From: Promethearchaeota archaeon
Lineage (GTDB): Archaea > Asgardarchaeota > Lokiarchaeia > Sigyniarchaeales > SOKP01
Assembly (NCBI GenBank): GCA_016839765.1
Contig: JAEOTP010000077.1
Coordinates: 1-60,188 of the forward strand
Reading direction: 5' to 3'
Length of the DNA: 60,188 nucleotides
The first letter of the stretch is position 1; every line of letters begins with the position of its first letter. The notes under the pieces were generated by a model. It saw only the letters and a program-made list of their open reading frames with translations. It searched no databases and was not told where the DNA came from. Made by a program: the position numbers and the translations under genes. Positions 47,981-60,188 of this stretch are shown here, one piece after another.

Positions 47981-49240
47981 TTAAAAAGAAAAGGTTATAT
48001 TTATCTTTATATCTTCATTTAATATACTTTTTACTGCATTCTGGAACTCTTCTCTTTCATTTTTTAATGCAGCCAAATATCTCATATAATCCTTATTCTT
48101 TCTATCTAGATCATTTTGAATATGCTCTAATCTCACAGAATTTGTTGAAATTTGATTTTTAACATCTTCTAATTCTTCAGATAATCCCGCATCTTTTACT
48201 TTTGCTTCTAATAACTTAGTTTCTTGCTTTAATTCATTTAATTCATCAATAAAGTTAAAAATCTTTTTTTCTTCGAAAATAGAATTAATATGCTCAATCG
48301 TTTTTTCCTTTGTATCAGTCTTTAGATCTAACTTATTCTCTTCTAAAACATGGCGTAATTGGACTAATAAATTTGAAAAATTTGGTAAATCTTGTCTTTC
48401 ATTACGAAGAGTTTTTATTGGATCTTTAAGGAAGTTTTTTAAGAAATTCATATTAAGATTTGATATATAAATCGTTTCTTTTACCAATTCATGTTTCAAC
48501 TTTTTTAATGCTTTTTTAAAACCTAATTGATCATTGATTTTCATTCTTAATTTAAATCGTTTCTCTTTTTTTTTTTCTAAATCTGAAAATAATGTATTTT
48601 TTTCTAGCTCCATTAATTTATTACTTAATTCTTCCTGATGGGTTTGATGCTCTTCTAATTGGTTTTCAAATTCTTCTAAATCTACTTTTGCATGTTCAAT
48701 ATTTTCTCGCAAACTAAAAAGTTTCGGTAATTTTTTAAGCAAGGATTCAGCATCTCTAAGATCCTCATATTTTTTTCTTAAGAATTGATCCAATACCGCT
48801 TGTTTTTTTTGAATTTTACGTGTGATATAATTAAGTTCTTTTATTTCAGGTTGTACTTCTTTTTGAAACTTAGGTAATGCTTTTCTTGCGATTTCATTTA
48901 TGTTAGTGAATAACTTTTTAATTGAATTTAATAAACTCATGATGCTATCATAGTTTAATTCTTCTTCTGGAATTTCTATCTCATCAATTTCTTTCCTGAT
49001 GCGATCAGAGAAAAAGTGTAAAGATTTTAAAGCTTTTTCTTCTATTTTTCCCTCTCCCGCTTCTAAAAAATGATCCATACAAACTTTGATCTCTATTAAA
49101 CCATCTCTTATTTCTGATATAAGTTTCTGAACCGCTTTTTTTACTTTTACAAATCGAGAGTCTAATCGACTCTTATAAAAATCTTCAAATTCCTCTAATA
49201 TTACTTCAATCATTTTATATCTATTTTTTTCTAGATTCAA
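47981..49240 (-). CDS. Coiled-coil protein of unknown function
   Basis: Up to 419 residues, almost all helical with long coiled coils (about 130-260 and 330-410); no membrane segment, zinc motif or ATPase motif. The start at 49240 overlaps the end of serS by 20 nt. The Met at 49213 would start cleanly 7 nt after the serS stop and is equally plausible. It is the last gene of the leftward hdr-serS series. SMC-like or ESCRT-like assignments are not supported by any motif I can see. Confidence 0.7.
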   Translation of the reverse strand: MNLEKNRYKMIEVILEEFEDFYKSRLDSRFVKVKKAVQKLISEIRDGLIEIKVCMDHFLEAGEGKIEEKALKSLHFFSDRIRKEIDEIEIPEEELNYDSIMSLLNSIKKLFTNINEIARKALPKFQKEVQPEIKELNYITRKIQKKQAVLDQFLRKKYEDLRDAESLLKKLPKLFSLRENIEHAKVDLEEFENQLEEHQTHQEELSNKLMELEKNTLFSDLEKKKEKRFKLRMKINDQLGFKKALKKLKHELVKETIYISNLNMNFLKNFLKDPIKTLRNERQDLPNFSNLLVQLRHVLEENKLDLKTDTKEKTIEHINSIFEEKKIFNFIDELNELKQETKLLEAKVKDAGLSEELEDVKNQISTNSVRLEHIQNDLDRKNKDYMRYLAALKNEREEFQNAVKSILNEDIKINITFSF

Positions 49241-50540
49241 TTAATTTTTTATTATTCATATATTTCTGTAAAACTCTGGGAATTCTTACAGAATGATCTT
49301 CATTTTGATAATTTTCTAATAAACAGCAAATTGTACGTTCCGTGGCGATTGCTGTGGAATTTAATGTGTGTACAATCTGCTTCTTTTCTTGAGTACCAAC
49401 TTTTCCCATTCTAATTTTTAATTTTCTTGCTTGATAATCAAGACAATTACTGCAAGAAACTAATTCTCTATACGCCTGCGAACTTGGGAACCATCCTTCA
49501 AGATCGAATTTCTTAGCAGCATTATCATTTAACGCTCCTGAAGCTATATTAACAATTCTATAAGGAATTTCTAATTCTTTAAAGATTTCTTCTGTGTTAG
49601 CTAATAATTCCTCGTGAAATATCCAAGAATTATCAGGTTTACAGAATATATACTGTTCTACTTTTTCAAACTGATGAACTCTAAATATTCCTAAAGTATC
49701 TTTGCCGTGAGATCCTGCTTCTCGTCTAAAACACGTAGAAACTCCAGCATACTTAATTGGTAAATTTTTAGGTTCGATTATTTCGTTAAAATGATAAGCT
49801 GCCATAGTTTGTTCTGCTGTGGCAATCATATAGAGATCTTCATCTTGAATTTTATACAATTGTTCTTCAAAATCTGCCAATTCCGCAGCTGCTTTAATTA
49901 CATCGTATTTAATAAAAAATGGGGGCCACATGGGAGTATAACCCTTGGAAATTAATTTGTCTAATGCATATCTCAATAGTGCAAAATTTAAGGATACGAT
50001 ATCACCTTTTAAATAATAAAATCTCGAACCAACTACTTCAGCTGCTTTCTTTGTATCTGCTCCATCAATTTCGGAGATTAAATCAACATGAGATAATGGG
50101 TTAAACTTAAACTTAGGTATATCTCCCACAACTCTCACAATTTCATTATTTTCTTCAGTTTCTCCAATTGGAACGGACTGATGCAAAATATTTCCAACAA
50201 TATAACGAAACTTTTCCCTTTGTTCTAAATATTCCACCTTATTTTTTTCTAACTCATCAATTCTTTCCTTAATTTTTATTGAGTTTAATTTAGCCTCTTC
50301 AACTTTATTAATTTCTCCGGATTTCTTAAATTGGCCAATCAGAATTGAGATTTCGTTTCTTTGTCTTTTTAATTCTTGAAGCTCTTTTAATACTTCTCTC
50401 CATTTTTTATCATAATCTAAAACTTTTCTCGCATTAGATGGGTCTTTAAATCTTTTTTCTTCCGAACCAATTATCTTTTCCAAATCATTTCGATATAATT
50501 CAATGTCGAGCAAATAAAATTCCCTCGAAATTTTATTCAT
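49221..50540 (-). CDS. serS: Seryl-tRNA synthetase (standard type)
   Basis: 439 residues. An N-terminal helical arm (about 25-110, tRNA-binding coiled coil) is followed by a class II core. Motif 2 is FRREAGSHGKDTLGIFRVHQ and motif 3 lies near ENYQNEDHSVRIPRVL. This is the common type, not the rare methanogen type with a zinc-bound active site. It charges tRNA-Ser, and in selenocysteine-using organisms also tRNA-Sec. The gene overlaps the small upstream ORF by 8 nt and follows a Cys-type hdr-mvh set. Confidence 0.95.
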   Translation of the reverse strand: MNKISREFYLLDIELYRNDLEKIIGSEEKRFKDPSNARKVLDYDKKWREVLKELQELKRQRNEISILIGQFKKSGEINKVEEAKLNSIKIKERIDELEKNKVEYLEQREKFRYIVGNILHQSVPIGETEENNEIVRVVGDIPKFKFNPLSHVDLISEIDGADTKKAAEVVGSRFYYLKGDIVSLNFALLRYALDKLISKGYTPMWPPFFIKYDVIKAAAELADFEEQLYKIQDEDLYMIATAEQTMAAYHFNEIIEPKNLPIKYAGVSTCFRREAGSHGKDTLGIFRVHQFEKVEQYIFCKPDNSWIFHEELLANTEEIFKELEIPYRIVNIASGALNDNAAKKFDLEGWFPSSQAYRELVSCSNCLDYQARKLKIRMGKVGTQEKKQIVHTLNSTAIATERTICCLLENYQNEDHSVRIPRVLQKYMNNKKLIESRKK

Positions 50541-50762: not shown

Positions 50763-51197
50763 TTACTTTCGTAAAGGGCCCAATTCCTTTATTTCACTAG
50801 TAAAATCAGTGATTACCTTGGCAAACCTTTTTCCTTCGGAAGCACTTACCCATTCTAACTTGACGCGTTTTTCATTAACACCTAACTGCTTTATAATTAT
50901 GTTATACAACCTTTCAAAACGGTCTCTTGTATATTCATTTCCAGAGATGTAATGGCAATCACCAATATGGCATCCACTAATAAGAACACCATCAGCACGA
51001 TTTTTTAAAGCCCTTAGGACAAAAGCAGGATCCACTCTTCCAGAGCACATAACTCTTATTATTCTAACATTTGGTGGATATTGGAATCTAGAAACTCCTG
51101 CTAAATCAGCCCCAGCATAACTACACCAATTACAACAAAAAACCAAAATATAGGGCTCAAAATCTTCCTTCTCAACTTGTGATACTGCTTTTGTCAT
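50763..51197 (-). CDS. mvhD: MvhD-like Fe-S subunit (cysteine form)
   Basis: 144 residues of the MvhD/HdrA-associated [2Fe-2S] family, which carries electrons from a hydrogenase or formate dehydrogenase to HdrA. Seen: FCCNWCSYAGADLAG (about 20-35), RVMCSGRVDPAFVL, and LISGCHIGDCHYISGN near 78-92. All ligand positions are cysteine. It lies 1 nt downstream of the large HdrA gene. It is the cysteine counterpart of the UGA-containing copy at 57991-58425 and nearly the same length. Confidence 0.92.
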   Translation of the reverse strand: MTKAVSQVEKEDFEPYILVFCCNWCSYAGADLAGVSRFQYPPNVRIIRVMCSGRVDPAFVLRALKNRADGVLISGCHIGDCHYISGNEYTRDRFERLYNIIIKQLGVNEKRVKLEWVSASEGKRFAKVITDFTSEIKELGPLRK

Positions 51198-51198
51198 T

Positions 51199-54100
51199 TT
51201 ATAATTCCTCTAACGATTTAGTTTTCTCTAGCAAATATGAATCTATCATCACACCTATTTGGTCAAAATCATAATGCTTTACAGATATTGCACCGACTGG
51301 ACAGGTGGCAGCGCAAGTCCCACAACCTTTGCATAATGCCGAATTTATATATGATTGCTTTATATTCAAATCCAAATCTTCAAATTCCATTTTAGTATCC
51401 AAAAGCTCAATAGCATTATAAGGACAAGTTTCTACACATTTTCCACATCCAATACATTTATCTGGATTAACTTCAGATATTAAACCGGAAGTCTTAATCT
51501 GTTTTGCGCTTAAAAATCGACTAGCTCTACCAGCTGCACCACTTGCTTGTGAAATTGAATCCTGAATATTTTTCGGCCATTGGGCGCATCCACACAAGAA
51601 GATGCCATCAGTTGCAAAATCTAAAGGTCTTAATTTGACATGCGCTTCCAAGAAAAAACCGTTTTTGTCTATTGGTACTTTTAACATTTTTGCTAATTCT
51701 TCTAAATTATCTGCTGGAATCATTGGAGTTGATAATATTATTAAATCGGTTTGAAATTCTATTTCCTCTTGAAGATTCGTGTCAAAAACCTTTATTTCGT
51801 AATTTTCTCTGGCTCCCCTTTTTCTAGTAATTTCTGGTATATTAGTTAAATCATATCTCAAAAAAATTGCATCTTTTCTTCTTTGGCGATAATAATCTTC
51901 GAACTCCTTCTTAGCCATTTGCAAATCTCTATATAATACCGTAATTTCAAGTTCAGGCTTGATTTCTTTAAGTATATTAATATTCTTAATTGCTGTTGCA
52001 CAACAAATATTTGAGCAATAGGTAATCCCTTCTTTTTGTCTTGAATTCACACACAAAATGGTAGTTATTCGATTTATATTTTTTAACCATGCACCATTTT
52101 GATCTTTTAATTTTTGTTCTAGTTCTAGTTGAGTTATGACATTTTGATTTTTACCGTTATATTGGAATAAACCATTTGGTTTTAATTCCTTCCCTCCAGT
52201 AGCAACTATTATTGTACCAACTTTAAAATCATGAATTACTTTTTCTTTATCGCCTACAGCAATATCATAATTTCCTATGTAACCCTTAATATTCTCAAGT
52301 TTAGATTCTAAGAAAATTTTGATATTTTTATTCTTTTTTACTTTTTCAATTATTTCATTTAGAAAAATTGATCCTTTTTCTTGAATTGGAGATAGAATGT
52401 TAAGATAATTTAGAATACCTCCTAATTTATTCTCTGTTTCTACGAGGTATGTTTCAAATCCTTGTTCTGCGATGTTTAGCGCGGCACTCATTCCTGCAAC
52501 CCCTCCACCAATGACTAATGCTGAGGGAATAATATTAAGGGTTTCTTCTTTTTGTGGCTTTAAGAGTCTGGCTTTCGCTACAGCCATTTTTACAAGGTCT
52601 ATAGATTTTTCGGTAGCTGCTTCCCTCTCTGTCATATGAACCCAAGAACATTGATCTCGAATATTAACCATTTCAAAAAGATATTTGTTTAATCCTGCCT
52701 CTTGACAAGTAACCTGAAACAAGGTTTCATGTGTTCTAGGAGTGCACGAAGCTACTATGAACCTATTTAAATCATTTTCTTTAATAACTTCCTTTATTCT
52801 TTCCTGAGAATCACTAGAACATGAATATAAATTTGCTTCACAGTGAACTACATTTGGTAATTTTTTAATTTCTTCAACAACGTCTGGAACATCTACATAT
52901 TTTCCAATATTAATCCCACAATGACAAATTAAAACTCCAATTCTCGATTCTTCAGATGTTTTTACTTCCTTTTCTGGTTCTTCAAACTCCTTTTCTTTGA
53001 TCTGGGTAAATTTAACTGAGTTTAATAATGTTGCAACTTGTGATGCTACACCACTCGCATCTGCTACAGTCTCAGGGATATCCATTGGACCTTGACAAAA
53101 ACCGCATAAAAATATACCATCTTTTGAAGATTGTAATTTATTAAAGTAAGAACGTTCCTTGAAAAAATTATATTGATCAAGTTCAATCCCTAAAATCTCT
53201 GCTAATTCGTTTGTGCCTCTTGATGCTACTAAGGGTGATGCTAATACTACTAAATTTGCTTTAAAATCTTTAAATTCTCCAGTTTTTAAATCCTCATAAT
53301 GTATAAGTAAATCATTAGTTTCAGGATCTTCCCTAATTTGACTGATCTTCGTTTGGTAGTATTTTACTCCATATTCTTGCTGAGCCCGCTGAGTGAATTC
53401 ATAAAAATTCTTACCATAAGCTCTAATATCGTGTCTAAATACATAGCATTCTGATTTCTCGGAATGTTCTTTTGTTATAATTGCTTCTTTTGCTGTATAT
53501 GTACAACATACACTTGAACAATACGGTACTCCCTCATGTAAATCTCTTGAACCAGCACATTGAATAAAAGCAATTTTTTCAGGTTCTTCATGATCACTTG
53601 GTCTTAAGACATGTCCCCCGAAAGGTCCTGAAGCACATAAAATTCTCTCATATTCAAGAGCACTTACTACATTTTCATATTGGTACCCCCATCTTAAAGA
53701 TAATTTTTCAGCAGGCATCTCAAAACCAGTTGCTACTACAATAGCTCCTATATTGAGTTGAATATCTTGAGGTTTTTGTTCATAATCAATTGCTTCAGCT
53801 TCACAAACTTTTTCACAAACTCCACATACTCCTTTTGTTAATTTCAAACACAACTTAGGATCAATTAAATAGACGGGAGGGACTGCTTGAGGGAAGGGTA
53901 TATAAATGGATTTTCTTTTCCCTAGATTCATATCAAATAAGTTTGGAACTTCAATTTTTGGGCATTTTGTAGCACAATCTCCACAGCCTTTGCATTTTGT
54001 TTCATCAATATAGCGTGGCTTTTTAAGAATTGTGATAGTAAAATCTCCTGCCGCTCCAGTAATTTCTTTAACTTCGTGATAAGTTAATAATTCAATATTA

Positions 54101-54306
54101 GGATTTCTAAAAACCTCGACCATTTTAGGTGCGAGAATACATAAACTGCAATCATTTGTAGGGAATGTCTTATCAAGTTGAGCCATTCGGCCTCCAATTG
54201 AGGGAGTCCTTTCAACTAAAAATACTTTATAACCTAATTCGGTCAAATCTAAAGAACATTGGATACCAGCAATTCCTCCACCAATTACTAATACAGATCC
54301 TTCCAT
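51199..54306 (-). CDS. hdrA: Double-length HdrA-like protein (cysteine form)
   Basis: 1035 residues, about 1.5 times a normal HdrA. Residues 1-440 are an HdrA core without the usual N-terminal domain: GGGIAGIQCSLDL (FAD), FPTNDCSLCILAPKM, CKGCGDCATKCP and a second Cys-rich site (CGVCEKVC). Around 460 a typical HdrA N terminus starts (GVLICHCGINIGKYVDVP). A second FAD domain (VIGGGVAGMSAALNIAEQG, near 595) lacks the NDCSLC loop. The end carries two [4Fe-4S] motifs (CIGCGKCVETCP and CKGCGTCAATCP). So it is a fusion of two HdrA-type units, one degenerate at the FAD-proximal cluster. HdrA is the bifurcating flavoprotein of heterodisulfide reductase. Overlaps the HdrCB gene by 1 nt (TAATG). Confidence 0.92.
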   Translation of the reverse strand: MEGSVLVIGGGIAGIQCSLDLTELGYKVFLVERTPSIGGRMAQLDKTFPTNDCSLCILAPKMVEVFRNPNIELLTYHEVKEITGAAGDFTITILKKPRYIDETKCKGCGDCATKCPKIEVPNLFDMNLGKRKSIYIPFPQAVPPVYLIDPKLCLKLTKGVCGVCEKVCEAEAIDYEQKPQDIQLNIGAIVVATGFEMPAEKLSLRWGYQYENVVSALEYERILCASGPFGGHVLRPSDHEEPEKIAFIQCAGSRDLHEGVPYCSSVCCTYTAKEAIITKEHSEKSECYVFRHDIRAYGKNFYEFTQRAQQEYGVKYYQTKISQIREDPETNDLLIHYEDLKTGEFKDFKANLVVLASPLVASRGTNELAEILGIELDQYNFFKERSYFNKLQSSKDGIFLCGFCQGPMDIPETVADASGVASQVATLLNSVKFTQIKEKEFEEPEKEVKTSEESRIGVLICHCGINIGKYVDVPDVVEEIKKLPNVVHCEANLYSCSSDSQERIKEVIKENDLNRFIVASCTPRTHETLFQVTCQEAGLNKYLFEMVNIRDQCSWVHMTEREAATEKSIDLVKMAVAKARLLKPQKEETLNIIPSALVIGGGVAGMSAALNIAEQGFETYLVETENKLGGILNYLNILSPIQEKGSIFLNEIIEKVKKNKNIKIFLESKLENIKGYIGNYDIAVGDKEKVIHDFKVGTIIVATGGKELKPNGLFQYNGKNQNVITQLELEQKLKDQNGAWLKNINRITTILCVNSRQKEGITYCSNICCATAIKNINILKEIKPELEITVLYRDLQMAKKEFEDYYRQRRKDAIFLRYDLTNIPEITRKRGARENYEIKVFDTNLQEEIEFQTDLIILSTPMIPADNLEELAKMLKVPIDKNGFFLEAHVKLRPLDFATDGIFLCGCAQWPKNIQDSISQASGAAGRASRFLSAKQIKTSGLISEVNPDKCIGCGKCVETCPYNAIELLDTKMEFEDLDLNIKQSYINSALCKGCGTCAATCPVGAISVKHYDFDQIGVMIDSYLLEKTKSLEEL

Positions 54307-55586
54307 TATGATTTAACTTCTCCATTATTTTCTGAATCAATTACATGAATTAAATTTACTAAAAACTCAGAAAAATCTTTAATTTCTATAGAAGATAAAT
54401 CGTCATAATCCTTTTGAAGGCACGAGAGGTGCATAATACATTTTGGACACGATGTAACCAAAGTTGTACCTGCTTCTTTAGCTTCTAAAAGACGACTATA
54501 TCTTAGAGCTTTGGATCGCGTATTACAATTCATCCATGAACTAACACCGCAACATAATGCATTCTCTTTATTGTGTGTCATTTCTTTGAAAGAATAACCT
54601 AATCCCTCTAAAATGTTAAAAATTTCCCTTAATTTTTCTAAAAGGTTATTAGATTTTGGTAAAAATCTGCTCAACCTGCAAGGATCGTGATAAGTAAACT
54701 GAATATTAATATCGCTTTCATCTGGAGCTTTTAACTCTACTTTGCCTTGTTTTAACTTTTCATATACGTACTCAATTATATGTTTCACTTCAAATTTTTT
54801 ATCAAAATCTTCAAATAGTTTTGGATACTCCACTTTAAAAGTCCTATAACCTTCTGCGCAAGATGTAATAATTGTTGAAACGCTGGACTTTTCAAATAAG
54901 TCATAATTTTTCTTTGCTAATTTGATAAAAGCCTCAAAATTCCCTAATCCCCAGTATAAGTCGTGTCCACAACAGACCTCATCTTTAAGAACAACTATTG
55001 GACGATTCTCAATTTGACACATTATTTTAAGTGAGCTTATGGGAATTGGATCTACTTCTTGGAATTCAAATTTAAAATATGGTATGCAACCTACGAAATA
55101 TAGAATATCCCCTTTATCTGAAATTTTACATTCTTTTGGGACCCAATCAAGATTTTTATTCGGTTGGATATAAGGCTCGCTCAATATTTCTGATATAGTA
55201 GTATAAATACCTTTATGTGCAACGAATTGCTCTGGGTTTTGTTTATAATAATTTTTCATTTTATATTTTGCATTTCTTACAATATCAGCAAAATTTATAT
55301 CTTCGGGGCAATTTTGAAGGCAGCTATTGCATGTTAAACAATCCCATAAAACCCCACTACTGATTACTTTATCTTCAGACCCTTCTAATATTCTTTGAAT
55401 AATTACGCTAGGTACAAAACTTTGAACTTTACTAAGTTGGCATACGCCGCTACAACGAACACATTGATAACATTTACTCAATAGTTTTCTTAAATTTGGT
55501 TCGTAAATCTTGTCTAGATATAACTCTGAATCCTCTATGGATTGTTCAGAATTATCTTTTTGATTGATTTCTGTTATAAGCTTCAC
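54306..55586 (-). CDS. HdrC-HdrB fusion (HdrD-like) CCG-domain protein
   Basis: 426 residues. The N-terminal part is HdrC-like with two [4Fe-4S] motifs: CYQCVRCSGVC (near 41) and CLTCNSCLQNCP (near 84). The C-terminal part is HdrB-like with two CCG domains: FVGCIPYF...EVCCGHD and HDPCRLSRF...ALCCGVSSW...CPKC. These hold the noncubane clusters that reduce disulfides. The fused order is that of HdrD. It is the first gene of the leftward set. What disulfide it reduces in an organism without methanogenesis is unknown. Confidence 0.9.
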   Translation of the reverse strand: MKLITEINQKDNSEQSIEDSELYLDKIYEPNLRKLLSKCYQCVRCSGVCQLSKVQSFVPSVIIQRILEGSEDKVISSGVLWDCLTCNSCLQNCPEDINFADIVRNAKYKMKNYYKQNPEQFVAHKGIYTTISEILSEPYIQPNKNLDWVPKECKISDKGDILYFVGCIPYFKFEFQEVDPIPISSLKIMCQIENRPIVVLKDEVCCGHDLYWGLGNFEAFIKLAKKNYDLFEKSSVSTIITSCAEGYRTFKVEYPKLFEDFDKKFEVKHIIEYVYEKLKQGKVELKAPDESDINIQFTYHDPCRLSRFLPKSNNLLEKLREIFNILEGLGYSFKEMTHNKENALCCGVSSWMNCNTRSKALRYSRLLEAKEAGTTLVTSCPKCIMHLSCLQKDYDDLSSIEIKDFSEFLVNLIHVIDSENNGEVKS

Positions 55587-55971
55587 TAAAATATTTTAAT
55601 TCTTACTTCATATTATATTGAATCACTTTGAATATGATAAAAAGGGAATGAATTTATTTTTTCTGATTAGTTTTAATAATGGTAGTTCGGTATGAAAATA
55701 AATGTAATAAGCGCAGAGTTCTAGGGAAAATTTTAATATAGAGAGTACTGAGCTCTATTATTAAATATTTCTTTTCCATTGTTGTCATCATTAAAAAATT
55801 AAAAACCAATAGGAAAAATTGTAGTTTTAAGAGTTTTTCTTATTTAATATTGGAATTATATAGTCTAATCAGAAAGAATAAATTATTTCCTTTTTTTACT
55901 TAATCATTATATTTAAATCGTTAAATTTAAAACCAAATAAATCAAGGTGAAAGAATACAAGGGTGACATAA
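55587..55971 (+). promoter_or_regulatory. Divergent promoter region between the two hdr sets
   Basis: 385 bp separate the leftward cysteine hdr genes from the rightward UGA-containing ones. For the rightward set TTATATTTAAAT at 55906-55917 is a TATA candidate, giving a leader of about 35 nt with GGGTGA (55961-55966) before the ATG at 55972. A near-central palindrome ATAGAG-(9 nt)-CTCTAT lies at 55738-55758 and could be an operator that switches between the two sets. No gene fits in this stretch. Confidence 0.45.
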
Positions 55972-57969
55972 ATGTCTGATAAGCAGACCATTGTTAGAAT
56001 AGGCGTTTATGTATGCAGGTGAGGAGTAAATATTGGAGCTACGGTAGATTGTGATGCTGTGAAAGATGCTGTTGAACATCTCTCAAATGTCGCAATTACT
56101 AGAGTAAATGACTTTACTTGTAGTGATCCTGGACAGAAAATCATCAAAAATGATATTTTAGAGTTAGATTTAAATCGCATTGTTGTTGCTGCTTGTACTC
56201 CAAAAATTCATGAATCCACTTATCGTGCTGTCTTAATTGAAGCTGGATTAAGCCCTTATTATTTTCAGATGGTTAATTTACGTGAACATTGTTCATTTGT
56301 ACACGGAGATGACAAGAGAGGTGCCACTGAAAAGGCGATAAGACTAGTTATAGCAGGAATAAACCGTGTTCGTGAGTTAGAGAGTATTCCCCGGAAAGTT
56401 ATACCAGTAGAGAGGGCAGCTTTAGTAATTGGTGCTGGAATTGCTGGAATGAATGCTGCGTTAGATTTAGCAAACCAGGGAATAAATGTTTATTTAGTTG
56501 AAAAAGAACCTACTATTGGTGGAAAAATGGCACAATTAGATAGGATTTATCCAACGGATGATTGTGGAATATGAGTACTTGCTCCAATAATGGTTAATGC
56601 TTCGAAACAACCAAATATAAATTTATATACTTATAGCGATATCGTCGAATTTAGCGGAATTCCTGGTAATTATAAAGTTAAAATAAGAAAAAATCCTCGT
56701 TATATTGATGAAAGTAAGTGTACTGGTTGTGGCTTATGCACATCCAAATGTCCTATAAAAATACCCGATGAATTTAATAGAGGGATCGGTGATAGGTGTG
56801 CTGTTTACATTCCCTTCCCTCAAGCTGTACCAAAATATGCTGTAATTGACAAGTCTGTTTGTATTGACTGCAAAAACTGCCAAAGAATATGCCCAGCCGA
56901 AGCAGTTGATTTTGAACAAGAACCACAATATATTGATATAAATGTGGGAGCTGTAATAGTCGCTACAGGTTATGATGAATACCCAATTATCGAAACTAAT
57001 GAGTACAACTATGGATTATATCCTGATGTAATCACTCAAATAGAACTAGAACGGATGTTAAGTCCTATTGGTCCAACCGATGGTCATGTGTATAGAATTT
57101 CTAATGGAGAAATCCCAAATACGATTGTTATGATTCAATGTGTCGGTTCAAGATCAGTAAAAGAACTTCCCTATTGCTCTGGAGTGTGTTGCAATGTGGC
57201 TCTTAAAAATGCACAATTATTAAAGCAAGAGTATCCTGACATGGATGTTGTTTTGTTTTACATTGATATTAGGACAACAGATAAAGGAAACGAGGAATAT
57301 TATAGAAGAATAAGAGATACGGGGATTAGAATGATTCGAGGAAAAGTCGGAGAAGTATTGGAAGACCCTGAAACGAAAATGCTAAAAATTCGGGCATTTT
57401 CATCTTTAACAGGTGATATTATTAAACTTAACGCTGATTTAGTTGTATTGTCTACAGGTATGATACCTTCAAAAGGTACTATTGAAATTATAGACTTAAT
57501 GGGTTTAGCTAAAGGTCCAAATGGATTTTTAACTGAAATTCATGGATGTCTAAGCCCTCAAGAAACGAATAATATGGGAATTTATATTTGTGGGGCTGCA
57601 GCTGGACCAAAGAACATCCCTTATTCCGTATCAACAGCTTTAGCGGCAGCAAGCAAGGCTGCTACTCTGCTATCGCACGATACTATAAACCAAGAATTAT
57701 TGATTGCAGAAGTGAAAGAAGAACTTTGTATGGGATGCCATAGATGTGAAAAATTGTGTTATTATGAAGCAATAAAAGTAGGTGAAAACAATATTGCAAT
57801 TGTAGATGATTTAAAATGCAAAGGTTGTGGCGTGTGCGCTACATCGTGTCCCGCGAGAGCGATTGACCTAAAATACTATAGAGACAAACAATTCATCGAA
57901 GAAATTAAAGGAATCAGTAGTAGCGAAATTGAATCCATCCAAGAAGCACCAAAAATTGAGGAAGAGTAA
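55972..57969 (+). CDS. hdrA: HdrA with two UGA-encoded selenocysteines
   Basis: 665 residues if UGA at codons 17 and 201 is read through. Codon 17 gives VCR-U-GVNIG, where the cysteine copy in this window has ICHCGINIG. Codon 201 gives YPTDDCGI-U-VLAP, where the other has FPTNDCSLCILAP. The frame is continuous and fully HdrA-like on both sides: FAD motif VIGAGIAGMNAALDL near 150, CTGCGLCTSKCP, CIDCKNCQRICP, and C-terminal CMGCHRCEKLC and CKGCGVCATSCP. Length is that of standard HdrA. UGA is a normal stop elsewhere here, and selenocysteine in HdrA near the FAD-proximal cluster is known in methanogens. Read as ordinary stops, it would be seen as three broken pieces. Confidence 0.92.
56020..56022 (+). 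other. UGA codon read as selenocysteine, HdrA residue 17
   Basis: TGA in frame between TGC AGG and GGA GTA AAT ATT GGA. The matching residue is cysteine in the HdrA of the leftward set (CHCGINIG). Confidence 0.88.
56572..56574 (+). other. UGA codon read as selenocysteine, HdrA residue 201
   Basis: TGA in frame within DDCGI-U-VLAPIM. It corresponds to the second Cys of the NDCSLC motif, a ligand region of the cluster next to FAD. Confidence 0.9.
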
Positions 57970-57990
57970 ATAATTTAGAGGTTAATTCAT

Positions 57991-58425
57991 ATGGTTGATT
58001 CAGAAAATAAGAATTTTAGAAAAATTATTGCTTTTGGATGCGATAAATGAGGTTATTCTGCTGCGGATTTAACTGGAACTACGAGAAAAACATACTCAAC
58101 TGATTTTCACTTAATTCGAGTTAGATGTACAGGAAGAGTTGGTATTCATTTAATTATGGAATGTTTTTTGAATGGTGCTGATGGAGTAGCTATTATATCA
58201 TGAAAAGAAGGAGAATGTGAATATGGTAGTGGTAACCTTAATACCTATGAGCATATTAAGCTCTTGAAACGGTTATTTAAACATCTAGGGATTTCCGAAA
58301 ACAGGATTCAACAATATTTCTGTTCAGCAGCAGAGGTGGAAAAATTCATCCAATCAGTAGAAGACATAACAACCAAAATTTATGAACTCCCACCTATACC
58401 TAAACAAAAACTTAATCCGAAGTAG
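57991..58425 (+). CDS. mvhD: MvhD/VhuD-like Fe-S subunit with two UGA-encoded selenocysteines
   Basis: 144 residues if UGA at codons 20 and 71 is read through, the same length as the cysteine copy at 50.8 kb. Alignment with it: FGCDK-U-GYSAADLTG against FCCNWCSYAGADLAG; RVRCTGRVGIHLIMECF against RVMCSGRVDPAFVLRAL; IIS-U-KEGECEYGSGN against LISGCHIGDCHYISGN. Both UGAs replace cysteine ligands of the electron-transfer cluster. It starts 21 nt after the hdrA stop and ends with TAG. It accepts electrons from a hydrogenase or formate dehydrogenase partner and passes them to HdrA. Conventional gene calling leaves this stretch empty. Confidence 0.92.
58048..58050 (+). other. UGA codon read as selenocysteine, MvhD residue 20
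   Basis: TGA in frame in GCDK-U-GYSAADL, replacing the third Cys of CCNWC in the cysteine paralog. Confidence 0.9.
58201..58203 (+). other. UGA codon read as selenocysteine, MvhD residue 71
   Basis: TGA in frame in IIS-U-KEGEC, at the place of the first Cys of GCHIGDC in the cysteine paralog. Confidence 0.88.
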
Positions 58426-58485
58426 GATGATCCTACCAAAAAAATTATAGTTGGGAGGAAACTAACTCATAGCCTGAGCTTTCGG
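58417..58485 (+). promoter_or_regulatory. Candidate SECIS element in the mvhD 3' region
   Basis: A foldable region begins at the mvhD stop codon. An outer helix CCGAAG (58417-58422) can pair with CTTTCGG (58479-58485). An inner helix TCCTACCA (58431-58438) can pair with TGGGAGGA (58452-58459) with one A-G mismatch, closing an A-rich loop (58439-58451). ATGA (58427-58430) sits directly before the inner helix, as in eukaryotic-type SECIS elements, but I do not see the matching GA on the other strand. A 15-nt palindrome GTAGGATGATCCTAC (58422-58436) offers a competing fold. As hdrA has only 21 nt before mvhD, one element here would have to serve both genes. Confidence 0.35.
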
Positions 58486-58520
58486 AATTAAAAATTAGAT
58501 TAATTATTAATATTATAAAG

Positions 58521-60014
58521 ATGGAATCAAAAGGAACTATTTCATGGAACTTTTTAAAGGATATAGCAGATACTTTAGATTCATATAGGATACGCCTCTT
58601 AATAGATGCTAAAAATGAAATTATTAGTTCTGCTATTTATGATGAAGAACAATATTATCAAATACTTCTTCAGATGATTGACGTAGAAAGAATGAAATAT
58701 TCCCTATTTAATTATTTAAATACCGAAGAAAATCACAATTTTAAATCCCTAAAACAATTTTCTAAACAAAATTCAATTGATATTAAAAAAACTCTAAGCT
58801 TTTTAGAGTTATTGAGAAATGAGAGACTAATCAAGGTAGAATATATTCATAACAATAATGATACTACTGAAGGAAATTCTAGCGATTTAACCATTAAGGA
58901 TTTATCAATTAGAAGTTTACAACTAATTCCTTCTGAAGTTAAATCTATCTACGAACCAGTAAAAGTTGTTTATGAGACTAACAATTGTTCTGGGTGTGGA
59001 TTGTGTGCTGGTATCTGTCCAGTTAATTGTATAAATATCTATAATGGGTTTGGAAAACTTGATGAAGATAAATGTATAAGATGCGGATTATGTTATTATT
59101 TTTGCCCAAGGACCTACTTACCTGTAAATTTATTAAATATGACCCAAAAAGATACTTCTAAATTAGAAAATTTTCCTAAAATAGGTTATTACCTAGAGGT
59201 ATATTCGGCTAGATCTAAAATAAAGGAAATCTCTAAAGTATGTCAAGATGGTGGAATTTCAAGTACGTGTCTCTATTTTTTGTTTGAAAGAAATGAGATA
59301 GATATTGCATTGGGAGCAAAAATGAGTCGAACTCCGTGGCGACCAGAACCAATATTAATTAAAAATAAAGAAGATATATTGAAAACTGCCGGAACAAAAT
59401 ATGTAAATAATCCTACTCTCAGCTTGTTAAATGAATTGAATAAAAATTCCAGCAAAATAGCTGTTGTTGGAGTTCCTTGTATGATGCAAGCTTTATTAAA
59501 ATCAGAAATTTATAATATCGGAATCCCCTCATTAAATCAGGTAGAATATAGAATCGGTATTTTTTGCATGGAATCATTTTCTTATGAATCCCTATTAAAA
59601 ATCTGCGAAACTTTAAGTGTAGATATTAACAATGTCCGGAAAACTGATATTAATAAAGGTAAATTTTTTGTATATACTCATAAGGGAGAAGATTTATCAA
59701 TTCCAATTAAAGAAATATCTCATTTAGCAAGAGAAGATTGTGAGATTTGCTTTGATTTAACTTCTGAGTCGGCTGACATATCAATTGGTTCAATTGGAGC
59801 ACCATCAGGTTGGAATACTGTTATAGTACGAACACCAAAAGGAAAACAATTATTTGATGGATTGGTAAAAAATAATTTGATTGAATTTAAAAAGATTACA
59901 GAAGTTCAACCCGGATTACCAATGGTTGAAAAAATTGCCAATTCAAAGAGAAATAAGTGCTCTAAACATATCGCTAAAAAAGAAGGCGAAAACAAGAGAA
60001 CTCCTAATTATTAA
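58521..60014 (+). CDS. FrhB/FdhB-like F420 oxidoreductase with N-terminal extension
   Basis: 497 residues. Residues 1-150 are a helical, winged-helix-like extension (FNYLNTEENHNFKSLKQFSK, ISLELLRN-type helices) I do not recognise. Two [4Fe-4S] motifs follow: CSGCGLCAGICP and CIRCGLCYYFCP (about 155-200). Then comes the FrhB domain: VCQDGGISSTCLYFL, VVGVPCMMQAL and CFDLTSESADISIGSIG. FrhB-type subunits bind FAD and F420 and move electrons between F420H2 and iron-sulfur partners. It lies 95 nt after the UGA-containing mvhD on the same strand, pointing to an F420-coupled HdrA complex. CofC is 10 kb upstream. Confidence 0.85.
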   Translation: MESKGTISWNFLKDIADTLDSYRIRLLIDAKNEIISSAIYDEEQYYQILLQMIDVERMKYSLFNYLNTEENHNFKSLKQFSKQNSIDIKKTLSFLELLRNERLIKVEYIHNNNDTTEGNSSDLTIKDLSIRSLQLIPSEVKSIYEPVKVVYETNNCSGCGLCAGICPVNCINIYNGFGKLDEDKCIRCGLCYYFCPRTYLPVNLLNMTQKDTSKLENFPKIGYYLEVYSARSKIKEISKVCQDGGISSTCLYFLFERNEIDIALGAKMSRTPWRPEPILIKNKEDILKTAGTKYVNNPTLSLLNELNKNSSKIAVVGVPCMMQALLKSEIYNIGIPSLNQVEYRIGIFCMESFSYESLLKICETLSVDINNVRKTDINKGKFFVYTHKGEDLSIPIKEISHLAREDCEICFDLTSESADISIGSIGAPSGWNTVIVRTPKGKQLFDGLVKNNLIEFKKITEVQPGLPMVEKIANSKRNKCSKHIAKKEGENKRTPNY

Positions 60015-60128
60015 AAATATATGATATTTGAAATTATCTCGAAATCTTCTTTCTTCTATTCTAAACCATAAAATTAATATTAAATTTCACATTAAAAAGT
60101 ATATCATTAATATTTATTTGGAATTAAA

Positions 60129-60188
60129 ATGAGTTCTATATCTCCAATTAGACCCAAAAACTTTCGTGAAAAAGTATTTTTCAGAAAA
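60129..60188 (+). CDS. Start of a gene cut by the window edge
   Basis: An ATG at 60129 opens a frame of 20 codons (MSSISPIRPKNFREKVFFRK) that runs off the window without a stop. It follows the FrhB-like gene by 114 bp on the same strand. It is too short to identify; given the context it may be another electron-transfer subunit. Confidence 0.4.
   Translation, partial: MSSISPIRPKNFREKVFFRK

Follow-up and report, generated by a model that had tools for sequence, protein, structure and literature searches.

A selenocysteine (Sec)-containing FrhD/MvhD/VhuD next to a Sec-containing HdrA was reportedly first described in Lokiarchaeota by Mariotti in 2016, in a paper whose abstract is said to list five families, of which three contain several Sec. 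MvhD is a [2Fe-2S] protein that supplies the HdrA flavin with electrons (PMC6019823). In Methanococcus, hdrA and vhuD are located in one operon (PMC11097638). HdrA2-type bifurcating complexes combine HdrBC and an electron-donor module with an HdrA that has FAD and Fe-S domains. According to the accessible sections of Huang 2024 (PMC11227280), Sec-HdrA and Sec-FrhD/MvhD/VhuD are the most abundant selenoproteins of Asgard archaea and are always adjacent, and one SECIS element is common to almost all Sec-HdrA/Sec-MvhD pairs, with AUGA_AA variants in Lokiarchaeia. A review from 2026 (PMC13188914) assigns two Sec to VhuD and one to HdrA, and reports multiple Sec in FrhD/VhuD. Given these two precedents, the kind of protein and the gene pair dealt with here are already known from Asgard archaea and methanogens.

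In this study, we analysed a stretch of 60,188 nucleotides (hereafter the window) from a Promethearchaeota archaeon and confirm that it holds, between hdrA and an FrhB-like gene, a hidden mvhD gene with two in-frame UGA codons (Table 1). The source genome comprises 3.3 Mb in 96 contigs and encodes eleven FlpD copies, three of which contain two UGAs each.

Table 1. Coordinates of the Sec module, its SECIS element and neighbouring genes in the window
Feature	Position	Strand	Basis
hdrA, 665 aa, two Sec codons; standard ORF calling yields two pieces	55972-57969	+	HdrA2 profile
UGA, HdrA Sec 17, CxUGxN	56020-56022	+	conserved in module HdrAs
UGA, HdrA Sec 201, TDDCGIU	56572-56574	+	conserved in HdrAs examined
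mvhD/vhuD, two Sec codons, 144 aa, ATG to TAG	57991-58425	+	translation with TGA as U, FlpD profile, orthologs
UGA, MvhD Sec 20, CxxU motif	58048-58050	+	U in orthologs and paralogs, X in 9sfi_K
UGA, MvhD Sec 71	58201-58203	+	U or C in orthologs, X in 9sfi_K
SECIS element	58414-58488	+	covariation, covariance model
SECIS lower stem	58417-58421/58481-58485	+	CCGAA/UUCGG; overlaps last mvhD codons
SECIS AUGA core	58427-58430	+	
SECIS upper stem, 8 bp, with A-rich apical loop of 11 nt	58432-58439/58451-58458	+	
SECIS side hairpin, 3' side of internal loop	58465-58469/58475-58479	+	
FrhB-like F420 hydrogenase/dehydrogenase beta subunit with ferredoxin domain	58521-60014	+	PF04432 144.7 bits, PF04422 68.2 bits
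Cys MvhD copy, 144 aa	50763-51197	-	
Cys-only Hdr cluster	50763-55586	-	
Seryl-tRNA synthetase gene	49221-50540	-	

The initial annotation had described the mvhD stretch as empty to standard ORF calling and as an MvhD gene upon read-through, and both statements hold. Within the gene the table-11 ORF listing contains no ORF of at least 60 aa, and the frame read through UGA is unbroken over 144 residues. Its length equals that of the Cys copy in the same window, as had been noted, and both UGAs fall on cysteine positions, residues 20 and 71 being two of the five invariant Cys of the family. A frame of 144 codons free of TAA and TAG was obtained in 8 of 20,000 Markov sequences of matched composition, and the probability that both UGAs fall within the five invariant Cys columns is approximately 0.001. 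The rarity of such a frame, together with the placement of the UGAs, makes chance a poor explanation.

The profile search of the read-through translation that had been proposed as a check identifies a member of the MvhD/FlpD family. The protein scores 128.8 bits against Pfam FlpD (PF02662; gathering threshold 22.3) and matches solved MvhD/VhuD chains with E values of 1e-23 to 1e-27. The predicted model (pLDDT 88.1, pTM 0.84) superposes on Methanothermococcus MvhD (5odc_D/5odh_D) with a TM score of 0.83 and an rmsd of 1.2. In 41 sequences, positions C17, U20, C46, U71 and C76 are always occupied by Cys or Sec. Assignment to the methanogen VhuD equivalog was dropped: with NCBIfam NF045873 (F420-non-reducing hydrogenase VhuD) the score of 127.1 bits does not reach the curated cut-off of 215, and the protein is therefore not filed as a narrow-sense VhuD of the Vhu hydrogenase.

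The gene upstream of mvhD encodes an HdrA whose match to the NCBIfam HdrA2 model (801 bits) covers model positions 1-644; Sec-MvhD covers positions 642-774 of the same model, and the two genes are separated by 21 nt. The initial annotation had counted four Sec codons over the two neighbouring genes, and these are found as U17 and U201 of HdrA and U20 and U71 of MvhD. U17 is present in every module HdrA whose N-terminus lay in the retrieved DNA, and U201 is retained in those ortholog and paralog HdrAs that were inspected. Counting UGAs after the N-terminal motif in 43 orthologous HdrAs gave two in 31, three in ten and four in one; one partial copy shows one, and the HdrAs of paralogous modules have two to four. 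The extra UGAs (loci L091, L092, L094, L095, L100, L120; L116, L124, L127-L129; L132-L135, L138, L140) are nearly all situated at conserved Cys, in the motifs CxxCxxU, AxUTP, FLUTD and CVEU. One in L128 coincides with a Leu and is possibly an error in the sequence.

Directly behind mvhD we find a SECIS element which includes the last codons of the gene (AAU CCG AAG UAG). For the Asgard eSECIS-like type I, the accessible part of PMC11227280 gives an AUGA core, [G/A]A on the 3' side, an upper stem of 7-15 bp and an apical loop of 8-20 nt without ministem; the present element agrees with this type, having the AUGA, eight covarying pairs and an A-rich loop of 11 nt. In the alignment of 38 distinct sequences on which structure and covariation were assessed, both sides change at 12 of 18 pairs, and 94.5% of the cells pair as compared to at most 58% when the partners are slid. 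The covariance model matched 14 Sec loci outside its training set with E values of 1.2e-6 or better and two more Sec loci weakly (E 0.016 and 0.044). Among 34 Cys-MvhD loci it gave no significant match. Both-side changes are seen in all three helices of the held-out set as well, to be read with caution since this alignment was fitted to the model. The model did not match the paralog Sec loci L141, L142 and L144-L149 (eight loci). These form a third group of Sec HdrA-MvhD paralogs, in which a different AUGA hairpin is visible by eye. A gathering-threshold Rfam scan of the window returned one ordinary tRNA only and no SECIS family, for which reason the element was modelled in this analysis. An unfiltered scan of 55500-60188 detected a single SECIS (88 bits; next hit 13 bits) and no second one at the 3' end of hdrA. 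A covarying SECIS directly 3' of mvhD and specific to Sec loci thus bears out the selenocysteine reading put forward initially. In the loci L103 and L104 the stop codon of mvhD is a UGA within the AUGA core of the element, so that there one UGA must terminate while two upstream are read as Sec.

That standard ORF calling finds no gene at this place would fit a decaying mvhD duplicate with UGAs as real stops. The related genomes speak decisively against it. The close orthologs with named records are Lokiarchaeota MAGs, the nearest 97% identical, and two UGAs are present in the majority of best matches from 65 genomes belonging to the same GTDB family. The frame is intact in 44 orthologous Lokiarchaeota loci, which answers the call for a conservation check; a TAA that looks internal in some matches is an earlier C-terminal stop in those strains and breaks no frame. 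C17, C46 and C76 are unchanged across these loci. UGA is confined to the two Cys columns: residue 20 is Sec in all 44 ortholog and all 20 paralog loci, at residue 71, 40 of the ortholog loci have Sec and 4 have Cys. The dN/dS ratio is 0.036 to the nearest ortholog, with a median of 0.11 for pairs with moderate dS, and the SECIS is conserved behind the gene. Decay at homologous loci had been named as the outcome that would overturn the gene; with U/C exchange, no frame breaks and purifying selection, the locus passes this test, and we regard a pseudogene as ruled out. The rarity implied by the initial annotation did not stand up. Two further two-UGA MvhD genes exist in the same genome, nearly all relatives carry such genes, and both the family and the gene pair have been published (PMC11227280, PMC13188914).

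Several genes of this genome read through UGA, as would also be expected if the codon were reassigned genome-wide, for instance to Trp or Cys, with no SECIS involved. Yet UGA is the ordinary stop of seven other long ORFs in the window (the HdrA fragment not counted), the MvhD read-through UGAs all coincide with Cys positions, and the genome has both a SECIS and Sec machinery; we therefore consider reassignment ruled out. The machinery, in line with the predicted Sec decoding, includes adjacent genes for tRNA-Sec (62 bits) and SepSecS (475 bits; contig C34:4361-5826), a SelD gene with one in-frame UGA, a PSTK-like kinase with a full-length match below the curated cut-off, and a SelB fragment at a contig edge, which scores 170 bits with solved SelB 4ac9 as against approximately 50 bits for any EF-Tu. 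The marks of a selenoprotein gene are thus found together, i.e. UGA at the Cys positions of homologues, a 3' SECIS and the Sec machinery (PSTK below cut-off, SelB partial). A further alternative concerns which UGAs the element serves. With the hdrA UGAs 1.9-2.4 kb from it and in another cistron, it might act on mvhD only, and hdrA might have an own unrecognised signal or be read through less efficiently. We think this improbable: one element, at 88 versus 13 bits, is all that the unfiltered scan of hdrA, mvhD and the FrhB-like gene reveals, just 21 nt lie between hdrA and mvhD, and a shared SECIS is reported for almost all such pairs in the accessible part of Huang 2024 (PMC11227280). Next to the Hdr cluster, on the minus strand, is a gene for seryl-tRNA synthetase, an enzyme that charges tRNA-Sec as well.

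We are thus highly confident that the gene is a functional two-Sec mvhD/vhuD, decoded by means of a SECIS element, in a Sec-HdrA/Sec-MvhD/FrhB module. What the sequence data show is the gene with its conservation and U/C exchange, the structure of the RNA, the Sec machinery and the order of the genes. In vivo, SelB would carry Sec-tRNA-Sec, and the SECIS adjoining the 3' end of mvhD would direct insertion at the mvhD UGAs. Most likely this element also acts on both hdrA UGAs, located 1.9 and 2.4 kb upstream of it in one mRNA. The encoded protein would be a small [2Fe-2S] subunit which passes electrons to the HdrA flavin, with Sec replacing two of its five invariant Cys and probably taking part in cluster ligation. 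It would join Sec-HdrA and the FrhB-like subunit in a soluble module. As in flavin-based electron bifurcation of the HdrA2 type, electrons would move between F420/F420H2 (at FrhB), MvhD and the flavin of HdrA.

Concerning the neighbourhood, the FrhB-like gene starts 95 nt behind mvhD, and the gene order HdrA-MvhD-FrhB is conserved in orthologs. A full-length FrhB-like homologue follows mvhD in 40 of the 44 ortholog loci; in L116 the FrhB match is cut by the contig end, and the other three show no match in the 0.8-1.1 kb available. HdrA, MvhD and the FrhB-like protein are encoded side by side, and HdrBC-like is found in a divergent cluster upstream. This Cys-only cluster adjoins the Sec module and encodes HdrBC-like, a double-length HdrA (1035 aa) and the Cys MvhD. 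The module most likely serves to move electrons between F420 and the flavin of HdrA by way of MvhD, going by gene order and homology and by analogy with HdrA2 and Hdr complexes (PMC6019823, PMC12054007).

Among the described systems, the pairs of Huang 2024 (PMC11227280), as far as its accessible sections go, are alike in having the same two adjacent Sec genes in Lokiarchaeia, with one eSECIS-like element behind the pair that has an AUGA_AA or AUGA_GA core and an A-rich apical loop. These sections contain neither a count of Sec per protein nor a side helix of the SECIS, whereas the present locus has four Sec and a third covarying helix. VhuD and HdrA of the methanogen Vhu/Hdr complex (9SFI/9T1S) also resemble the Lokiarchaeal proteins. 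The solved VhuD 9sfi_K has X (non-standard) at the positions aligned to both U20 and U71, and the solved HdrA 9sfi_A has X at the U201 position; a search of the accessible literature for a paper on 9SFI/9T1S found none, and we infer that these residues are Sec. The differences are that the U17 position is Cys in methanogen HdrA and Sec in the Lokiarchaeal one, that the third partner is a hydrogenase in methanogens and an FrhB-like subunit here, and that the Lokiarchaeal SECIS is eukaryote-like. A lokiarchaeal SECIS on its own was not functional in M. maripaludis (PMC11881835). Methanosarcina HdrA2, an HdrA-MvhD fusion for F420H2-dependent bifurcation, is similar in that its model is covered along its length by Sec-HdrA and Sec-MvhD and the partner is likely F420. 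In contrast to it, the present module is divided into two genes, has four Sec positions and a separate FrhB-like subunit, and has no HdrBC gene adjoining on the same strand.

Possibly new are the third covarying helix of the SECIS and the presence of up to four Sec in related HdrAs. No description of a third SECIS helix or of a multi-Sec HdrA was found in the literature, as far as the accessible parts of the sources go, and Mariotti 2016 may cover both. We tentatively suggest, as an idea still more doubtful than secure, that one SECIS with a third covarying helix (a three-way junction, its lower stem overlapping the last mvhD codons) directs Sec at four to six UGAs in two cistrons, up to 2.4 kb upstream, and that the Lokiarchaeal HdrAs so served have as many as four Sec in conserved Cys positions, as against the single Sec given for HdrA in the 2026 review.

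With this finding the Lokiarchaeal inventory gains a well-supported electron-transfer module with multiple Sec, one that is lost in standard annotation, where hdrA is split in two and mvhD missed. The three-helix SECIS alignment provides a testable structure for the transition from the archaeal to the eukaryotic SECIS, and the module lends itself well to studying how several UGAs in two cistrons could be served by a single element.
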